Source: a virus. From it: 20,931 bases of DNA. Every line of letters begins with the position of its first letter. Position 1 is the first letter of the stretch. Below are positions 15,140 to 16,455 of the stretch, piece by piece. The position numbers and the translations under genes are program-made. Below the pieces are notes generated by a model, which did not search any database, had not been told where the DNA came from, and was given only the letters and a program-made list of their open reading frames with translations. The stretch is from positions 1 through 20,931 of the IMG/VR virus record IMGVR_UViG_3300030103_003499; one strand, written 5' to 3'.

Positions 15140-15168
15140 AGTGTAACTCATTTGTCAGACTCTATCAA
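15140..15168 (-). promoter_or_regulatory. candidate sigma70-like leftward promoter for the last HTH gene
   Basis: On the leftward strand TTGATA (15163-15168) and TACACT (15140-15145) are 17 bases apart, matching five and four of six consensus positions. The -35 box lies in the last codons of the preceding HTH gene. On the + strand, the 16-bp motif at 15133-15148 covers the -10 region and recurs at the main leftward promoter. Confidence 0.5.
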
Positions 15169-15363
15169 CACAGAGAAACGAAGGTATGCTTGCTCCCATT
15201 GTTCTGGGTACAAGTAAATGCACATTCGTAATAGATATGCTACACCAGGGGTTTGTTTGCCCACCACCCATTTTGCGATGGTGTCACGATGGCACCCTAG
15301 AACTCTAGCAAGTTGTGATTTGTTGACGTTAGACAATGTTTCTTTTAGTTCTTTTGCGAACAT
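15148..15363 (-). CDS. small HTH DNA-binding protein (71 aa)
   Basis: ATG 15363 has an excellent ribosome-binding site (GGAGGT, 4 bases before). A longer version starting at 15417 would lie inside the methyltransferase gene. The sequence MFAKELKETLSNVNKSQLARVLG is followed by CHRDTIAKWVVGKQTPGVAYL. This is a helix-turn-helix with Gln-Leu-Ala-Arg on the first helix and Arg-Asp-Thr-Ile-Ala-Lys-Trp on the recognition helix, of Cro-like size. It overlaps the end of the cytosine methyltransferase gene by 19 bases. It shares the W-V-G-x-x-x-P and L-Y-P pattern after the HTH with the HTH protein at 18397-18630, so these two may be related. Likely a small repressor of the phage early region. Confidence 0.85.
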   Translation of the reverse strand: MFAKELKETLSNVNKSQLARVLGCHRDTIAKWVVGKQTPGVAYLLRMCIYLYPEQWEQAYLRFSVLIESDK

Positions 15364-16169
15364 ACTACCTCCAGTAGTCCTGAGTTGATAATTTGTTGTC
15401 CTATCCATTCTGCGCATTGTGGGACGACTGCATTTCCGAGTGCTCTAAGTCTGTCCACCCGATTGGGAATCCCATCATCTCTTCGACAAACTGGGGATTG
15501 AGTTGGAAATCCTTGCCAGTACGTCTTGCTTGTGCTTCTAGACATCTGCTCGCTTGGCTGTTTCCCTTCAGTCTGAACTTGTGTTCGTGTGCTGTTGGTG
15601 TCGGCAGTAGTCCATCGACCGTCAACGAGTTCTCCAAATGCCATTGCGTTCCGCATGTAGCATCCAATGGTGCTTGGGTAGGCGACTCCAAACCACCTAC
15701 GTCTGAGGTGGGGTGCTCCACATTGTGCAGCTGATATAGTCGTCCATTCGATGTCATACCCGATTGCGGCAAGACTTCCAACAACGTCGGGTCCGCCCAC
15801 TCGAATGATGTTTGCGACATTTTCCAACACGAGTATTGGTTCGTGTCCGATGGAGCGAAACTCGCTAACAAGTCGGTGGACGTGCCACCAAAGACCAGAC
15901 TTTTCCTCATTTTCTAACCCCTCCATTTTTCCCGAGATACTAATTGATTGACACGGAAAACCTGCACATATGACATCTACTGGTTCCAAGTTGTCTGCTC
16001 CTACATGGAGCACGTTGTTGTATCGTTTTGTATTTGGCCAATGTCGCTCCAGAATAGAACGACAGAACTCTTCCTTCTCTACCTGCCAGACTGTTTGCAA
16101 ACCTGGTATGGATCTCTCTAGTCCCAAATCCAAACCTCCGATGCCACTGAACAGGCTACCCATCTTCAT
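15345..16169 (-). CDS. dcm: DNA (cytosine-5-)-methyltransferase (274 aa)
   Basis: The enzyme transfers a methyl group from S-adenosylmethionine to cytosine C5 in duplex DNA. In phages such enzymes usually protect against host restriction. All core motifs are present: motif I SLFSGIGGLDLGLE (5-18), motif IV GFPCQS with catalytic Cys73, motif VI ENV (116-118), motif VII LAAIGYDIEW, motif VIII CGAPHLRRRWF (156-158 Arg), a variable target-recognition stretch (about 165-225), and motifs IX-X IPNRVDRLRALGNAVVPQ. The length suits a compact phage enzyme, and nothing essential is missing. I start at ATG 16169 (AAGGG upstream, 14-base overlap with the SWIM gene). ATG 16163 is possible. The recognition sequence cannot be read from the protein. 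Its +1 frame carries another long open frame, listed separately. Confidence 0.93.
   Translation of the reverse strand: MKMGSLFSGIGGLDLGLERSIPGLQTVWQVEKEEFCRSILERHWPNTKRYNNVLHVGADNLEPVDVICAGFPCQSISISGKMEGLENEEKSGLWWHVHRLVSEFRSIGHEPILVLENVANIIRVGGPDVVGSLAAIGYDIEWTTISAAQCGAPHLRRRWFGVAYPSTIGCYMRNAMAFGELVDGRWTTADTNSTRTQVQTEGKQPSEQMSRSTSKTYWQGFPTQSPVCRRDDGIPNRVDRLRALGNAVVPQCAEWIGQQIINSGLLEVVCSQKN
15401..15910 (-). CDS. overlapping +1-frame protein inside the methyltransferase gene (169 aa, candidate)
   Basis: This frame lies wholly within the methyltransferase gene, one base downstream of its frame. Its ATG is preceded by GGAGGGG with a 7-base spacer, a good independent ribosome-binding site. The product carries SCWKMSQTSFEW (28-38), LPQSGMTSNGRLYQL (47-61), LLPTPTA (101-107) and LNPQFVEEMMGFPIGWTDLE (137-156). 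I recognise this as the usual motif order of proteins annotated in many phage and metagenome sequences, often as methyltransferase fragments. Each motif falls opposite a methyltransferase motif (VI, VII, the start of the target region, IX-X), so its conservation may simply reflect the other frame. It could be a genuine second protein or a conserved shadow. No function is known to me. Confidence 0.4.
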   Translation of the reverse strand: MRKSLVFGGTSTDLLASFAPSDTNQYSCWKMSQTSFEWADPTLLEVLPQSGMTSNGRLYQLHNVEHPTSDVGGLESPTQAPLDATCGTQWHLENSLTVDGLLPTPTAHEHKFRLKGNSQASRCLEAQARRTGKDFQLNPQFVEEMMGFPIGWTDLEHSEMQSSHNAQNG

Positions 16170-16455
16170 TGTCACCCTTCTTGAACTCCTTGTCCCATGA
16201 GTCCTTAATGGACTTTGCCAGTGCACCAAGATGCTTGCACTTGCTGCCACGGTACTGGTGATCAGGACATGTGCATGTATATCCTGACTGGTCAATCACA
16301 GCGGTCCATCGTGGAAAGTGTCCAACCATGCTACCATCTGGCAACATGTTGGACTTCATTTCCTTCATTTTAGTTTCTACTCGGTCGTCATCAAACAGGC
16401 CTTTGAGTCTCCAATGTTCAACAATGTCCTCGATGGTTTCAGTCATGGTTGGCAT
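16156..16455 (-). CDS. small SWIM zinc-finger protein (99 aa)
   Basis: Residues 61-75 read CTCPDHQYRGSKCKH, which is the CxC...CxH signature of the SWIM zinc-binding domain (Cys61, Cys63, Cys73, His75), preceded by a beta hairpin with VIDQSGYT. The N-terminal 35 residues are an amphipathic helix. SWIM domains bind DNA or proteins and occur in recombination mediators, transposases and SWI/SNF factors. Free-standing copies this small are found in phages with unknown roles. AGGAG 7 bases upstream fixes ATG 16455. It overlaps the previous gene by 17 bases and the methyltransferase by 14. Possibly an accessory factor for replication or DNA modification. This is inferred from neighbours. Confidence 0.85.
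   Translation of the reverse strand: MPTMTETIEDIVEHWRLKGLFDDDRVETKMKEMKSNMLPDGSMVGHFPRWTAVIDQSGYTCTCPDHQYRGSKCKHLGALAKSIKDSWDKEFKKGDNEDG

Follow-up and report, generated by a model that had tools for sequence, protein, structure and literature searches.

Overlapping frames of a viral C5-cytosine methyltransferase gene very probably encode two chains of one enzyme

The window, a 20,931-base IMG/VR virus record, carries on its minus strand a locus that very probably encodes a single C5-cytosine DNA methyltransferase as two chains read from overlapping frames, a catalytic chain A and an internally started chain B that bears motif IX. The comparative evidence gives us high confidence that the dual coding is real. 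In the arrangement that we propose, A (alpha) would provide the SAM-binding and catalytic motifs I-VIII and a C-terminal motif X, and B (beta) would be translated from the ATG at 15910 on the same mRNA as A, using an internal ribosome-binding site. B would supply motif IX and probably the target-recognition region, forming a small DNA-reading domain. In single-chain C5 methyltransferases, the target-recognition region and motif IX sit between motifs VIII and X. A and B would then associate as a heterodimer that methylates the phage DNA; shielding it from host restriction is the most plausible purpose. From sequence we infer the translation of B from ATG 15910, the pairing of the chains, the methylation activity, its target site and its biological role; that A and B function together as a heterodimer is likely.

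Frame A spans 15345..16169 and encodes a C5-cytosine methyltransferase alpha-like chain of about 274 amino acids from an ATG at 16169, with a second ATG at 16163. Frame B (15401..15910), nested entirely within A, encodes a beta-like chain of 169 aa that bears motif IX and a probable target-recognition region; its assignment draws on phrog_1008 and on the dual-coding tests described below. These frames and all parts of them discussed here lie on the minus strand. The first base of B falls on codon position 2 of A (offset 253), so B is the +1 frame. It is open for 169 codons from the ATG at 15910, which follows a Shine-Dalgarno-like GGAGGGG (15918..15924) with a 7-base spacer. The original prediction, made from the letters alone, had described this frame, start and spacer, and its description is exact on the sequence. 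The B motifs that it listed, WKMSQ, LPQSGMTSNGRLYQL, LLPTPTA and LNPQFVEEMMGFPIGWTDLE, are all present, and their positions opposite the named A motifs (LENVA, LAAIGYDIEW, ADTNS and others) agree as well.

Chain A is recognizable as the catalytic part of a C5 methyltransferase. It matches PF00145 at 5.3e-34 (118.5 bits, passing the curated cut-off of 22), phrog_363 at 4.4e-64 and TIGR00675 at 2e-29. Motifs I, IV, VI, VIII and X are found in it, with no motif IX. The PCQ of motif IV, with the catalytic cysteine, lies at 15948..15956 (P70 and C71 invariant), the ENV of motif VI at 15816..15824 (E114, N115 and V116 invariant), the RRRWF of motif VIII at 15690..15704 (R154 and R156 invariant) and the GNAVVP of motif X at 15420..15437 (G243 and N244 invariant). 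A aligned to M.HhaI at residues 11-179 and, weakly, at 300-320, with nothing between, and this gap indicates that the target-recognition region and motif IX are left out of A. The AlphaFold2 (AF2) model of A contains a confident M.HhaI-like Rossmann domain, which matches the M.HhaI structure over that part, and a disordered linker at residues 187-213 (pLDDT < 50). A single-chain layout, in which motif IX would follow VIII and precede X in one frame, was not found: the motif-IX profile hit the A frame in 0 of 80 loci selected with A. By these alignments, A is a methyltransferase chain that lacks motif IX.

The best-conserved columns of B read LNPxFVExMMGFPxGWT. In the window this segment is QLNPQFVEEMMGFPIGWTDL (15446..15505), marked by invariant or near-invariant columns, by the constraint on the zone and by a profile match to the motif IX of single-chain enzymes; the same bases also encode the pre-motif-X segment of A. 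The B signature aligns with canonical motif IX, LTPRECARLQGFP, weakly (pairwise hhalign E 5.3e-05), and the C-terminus of B aligns strongly with motif IX of actinobacterial relatives (hhalign pair E 2.8e-11). In relatives from Herbidospora (L128) and Corynebacterium (L133), a single chain in the A frame carries motif IX and, after it, X, and in a relative from Gleimia (L118) IX and X are found together in a second, overlapping chain. On these profile comparisons, we identify the B signature as the C5-methyltransferase motif IX. The LLPTPTA motif of B (15590..15610; T104 invariant, P103 and P105 near-invariant) lies opposite an unconserved linker of A that is modeled with low confidence. The N-terminal half of B faces A motifs VI-VIII and has conserved motifs of its own, WKTxQ and LPKSGMTxNGxLYxL.

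The Corynebacterium methyltransferase has a further peculiarity (L133, 2235-2940): an insertion just ahead of PCQ interrupts it, encodes HNH-like sequence and may be an intron or intein.

B matches phrog_1008, a family named 'DNA methyltransferase', at 8.5e-17, and 61 of 61 aligned B proteins match it too, in keeping with the original prediction that this order of motifs is common to many phage proteins. Searches of Pfam and NCBIfam gave no family match for B, and the PDB gave no credible one: its hits, to glycolipid transfer protein (E 0.6), are of chance level. Modeled alone by AF2, B had a low mean pLDDT of 53.7, and only the motif-IX helix reached about 81. A poor lone prediction is what one would expect of a chain that takes its fold on a partner, but it is not proof of such a chain.

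The poor in silico fold of B alone could also be taken to mean that both proteins are made and that B is no methyltransferase subunit but a mere overprint with a separate role, for example in counter-defence or regulation. Its N-terminal motifs, which have no known methyltransferase counterpart, point the same way. We regard this as unlikely, since the most conserved part of B is the motif that is absent from A, in relatives that segment is either built into one methyltransferase chain or attached to motif X, and B was found with A in every locus examined.

Among 65 related loci, 47 have a Shine-Dalgarno site plus start in the B frame, where synonymous shuffles predict 26.5; given the kinship among the 65 loci, this excess is modest evidence for internal initiation. 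Programmed ribosomal frameshifting from A would instead give an A N-terminus fused to B, with no internal initiation. It could draw on one relative (L055) that has the A N-terminus and B in one ORF, with A resuming in another frame after a G-run, and on a second (L113) that resembles it. This route seems improbable to us, as B's own ATG and Shine-Dalgarno-like site are retained in many close relatives, and in each fused case, a metagenome contig, a single indel falls at a G-rich site, which is what sequencing error or mutation would be expected to produce.

The joined ORFs lie at 2634-3518 of L055 and 706-1509 of L113, where single indels at G-rich sites between motifs IV and VI, which may reflect sequencing error, mutation or frameshifting, connect the A N-terminus to B. 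An in-frame A-B fusion as the rule for the family, suggested by L055, was rejected: A continues in another frame after the G-run, which indicates an indel.

The openness of the B frame was compared with synonymous shuffles in which the A protein and its codon usage were held fixed. The B stretch is expected to contain 6.2 stops, and it was stop-free with P = 0.0003 (0.03% of 20,000 shuffles). The length of the +2 frame, 71 codons, is unremarkable (P = 0.40). Because B queries select for open B frames and would bias a search, a set of 80 IMG/VR loci was collected with the A profile alone, with patterns from motifs I, IV and X. Their +1 open stretch has a median of 224.5 codons, compared with 98.9 in shuffles, and extends beyond 95% of shuffles (P < 0.05) in 73 of the 80. 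A 20-residue B signature in the +1 frame scored above all 60 synonymous shuffles in 77 of these loci; the signature profile was trained on other family loci, a few of them from the same contigs as the test set, and the shuffles serve here as the control for what A forces. Among ordinary single-chain C5 methyltransferases, 0 of 12 had the B signature and 0 of 12 had an excess of +1 openness.

Part of the resemblance between +1 readings is nevertheless imposed by A. Synonymously shuffled A still scores about 30-60 bits against the full B profile (106 for one close phage locus). Weak resemblance to the B family can thus be a shadow, and this background is the level that a genuine member has to exceed. 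Real +1 readings exceed the shuffles with z of about 3 to 14 on the whole-B profile, the most distant A relative tested (L096) standing at z = 3.0. The motif-IX piece alone is above the shuffle background in nearly all phage, genome and plasmid loci.

Substitutions point to constraint on B itself. The third codon position of A is the second of B, so changes that are synonymous in A are almost always nonsynonymous in B. We compared four-fold sites at identical A residues in the A-selected set (median A identity 0.53); the loci are related and pair counts are thus non-independent, and the weight rests on the contrast between neighboring zones of the same genes. The fraction of four-fold A sites that differ is 0.695 in I-IV, 0.536 in VI-VIII and 0.641 in the linker, drops to 0.190 in the motif-IX zone and returns to 0.674 in motif X directly after. 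The canonical controls differ at 0.625 of four-fold sites in their motif-IX zone. Change by codon position in the IX zone follows the pattern of B (A1/B3 0.477, A2/B1 0.285, A3/B2 0.348), and the +1 reading is the better conserved one there (identity 0.53, versus 0.47 for A), whereas the motif X zone shows the ordinary codon-position pattern of A. In an earlier set sorted into identity bins, four-fold sites of the IX zone are almost frozen even between pairs at 30-45% A identity (0.186 versus 0.712). At 55-70% A identity, the VI-VIII overlap is constrained too (0.441 versus 0.686); constraint on the N-terminal half of B is clear among closer relatives and fades in distant ones. These patterns indicate that both frames are under protein-level selection.

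The original prediction had offered two alternatives, that both proteins are made or that a large annotated family is a shadow frame of phage methyltransferases, and had proposed to compare stop-free length with shuffles and to compare substitutions at sites synonymous in one frame only. Both checks came out on the side of the first alternative, which the depletion of stops, the strong depletion of A-synonymous, B-nonsynonymous changes and the B-type codon pattern in the IX zone together support. The second keeps its force for weak family matches, which can be shadows, and loses it for B, which stands above the shuffle background. The prediction assigned no function to B, for which our evidence indicates the motif-IX subunit of this methyltransferase. 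That A alone is translated, and that B merely looks conserved since the motifs of A constrain the same DNA, is highly improbable: partly forced similarity and the lack of a curated family would fit it, but stop counts, synonymous shuffles, four-fold-site divergence and the canonical controls led us to reject it.

A DNA-level similarity also falls in this region. Around 15418-15523, stretches of 50-80 bases are 75-90% identical to phages of Synechococcus, Bacteroides, Lactobacillus and Stenotrophomonas. No longer DNA match is shared with them, and the interval corresponds to the double-constrained motif-IX zone.

The dual-coding locus is widely distributed. Among 93 loci with A and B hits, gathered by searching viral contigs and phage records with A or B as query, both readings are present in all, in the same +1 register except in L055, where an indel at the G-run likely shifts the frames. 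The pair occurs in phages of Mycobacterium, Sulfitobacter, Porphyromonas, Bacteroides, Paenibacillus, Synechococcus and Microcystis, as well as in viral contigs, coliphage K1ind1, plasmids, archaeal contigs and a methanogen plasmid. The hosts span Bacteroidota, Bacillota, cyanobacteria, actinobacteria and archaea. In a tree of motifs I-VIII, the sampled canonical enzymes form one branch (100/100) among the split ones; the tree is unrooted with few canonical rows, and it does not contradict a single origin of the split and does not decide the ancestral state. We lean towards the view that the phrog_363/phrog_1008 family and its relatives in phages, prophages, plasmids and archaeal sequences obligately dual-code both halves of the enzyme, with an ancient and possibly single origin and with the N-terminal half of B overprinted on motifs VI-VIII.

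Annotation of these loci is uneven. Both frames are annotated in K1ind1 (ORF28/29) and Bloom (two CDS), and the second frame is annotated as an 'internal gene' in the P. larvae phages Lily and Shelly. In PMG1 (L139, 850-1611) and in plasmid pSYLB of Synechocystis PCC 6714 (L146, 1178-2212), the B frame alone is annotated, as a 'hypothetical protein', and A is omitted. In a Bacteroides finegoldii plasmid (L137, 1728-2507), the annotation splits the A/B region into a short methyltransferase fragment and a hypothetical protein; this copy is apparently damaged or misannotated. Our literature search found no paper describing the overlap in phages.

Two-polypeptide C5 methyltransferases are known from M.EcoHK31I (YGGCCR), which belongs to a bacterial restriction-modification system, and from M.AquI (CYCGRG), a naturally split enzyme with its break before motifs IX-X. 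Lee, Kam and Shaw reportedly found in 1995 that the large-subunit gene of M.EcoHK31I contains the small-subunit gene in a different frame, with both proteins needed for activity. In M.EcoHK31I, motif IX is confined to the small subunit, the large one having motifs I-VIII and X (PMC3404938); the title of the original M.EcoHK31I paper states that two proteins are required for in vitro methylation. Compared by description, the locus in the window is alike in placing I-VIII and X in the large chain and IX in a predicted second, smaller chain, and in nesting the small gene in the large one in another frame, as is said of M.EcoHK31I (here 15401-15910 within 15345-16169). It differs in the recognition region, which is predicted in the large subunit of M.EcoHK31I (PMC3404938) and here more likely, and indeed probably, lies in B; given that prediction, B may supply motif IX without a full recognition region. 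The Gleimia relative shares the layout of M.AquI, in which IX-X are on a separate chain from I-VIII, whereas in the window motif X stays in A and the small chain holds only IX. The single-chain enzymes of the M.HhaI type share the catalytic core and fold of A, but their motif IX is in the frame of VIII and X, and their +1 frame has neither excess opening nor the B profile.

The kind of arrangement is thus known from M.EcoHK31I; the new part is its breadth, and the breadth and strength of the dual coding look unappreciated. Prokaryotes are thought to have few long same-strand overlaps, and such overlaps are filtered out by gene callers. At this locus, a single stretch of DNA appears to code for parts of both enzyme halves in nearly every A-selected locus examined. 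If the family is obligately dual-coding, few same-strand dual-coding loci in prokaryotes would be as widespread, and the habit of annotating one frame and discarding the other would have kept it hidden. The library treats phrog_363 and phrog_1008, both named 'DNA methyltransferase', as two independent families; A matches the first and B the second, and a single locus read in two ways would explain both public families. Where a phage methyltransferase has been annotated from A only, it is suggested to lack motif IX, and it may be inactive if cloned without B. An ordinary coliphage system is also offered for testing the evolution of overlapping subunits.

Neighboring genes on the minus strand overlap both ends of A. 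Downstream, a small helix-turn-helix protein gene (15148-15417; HTH_3, 4.3e-05) runs into the end of A; an ATG near 15362, preceded by GGAGGT, is the likelier start of this gene, and its product is a possible regulator. On the other side, a SWIM zinc-finger protein gene (PF04434, 1.1e-05) occupies 16156-16455, and its end falls just within the start of A.
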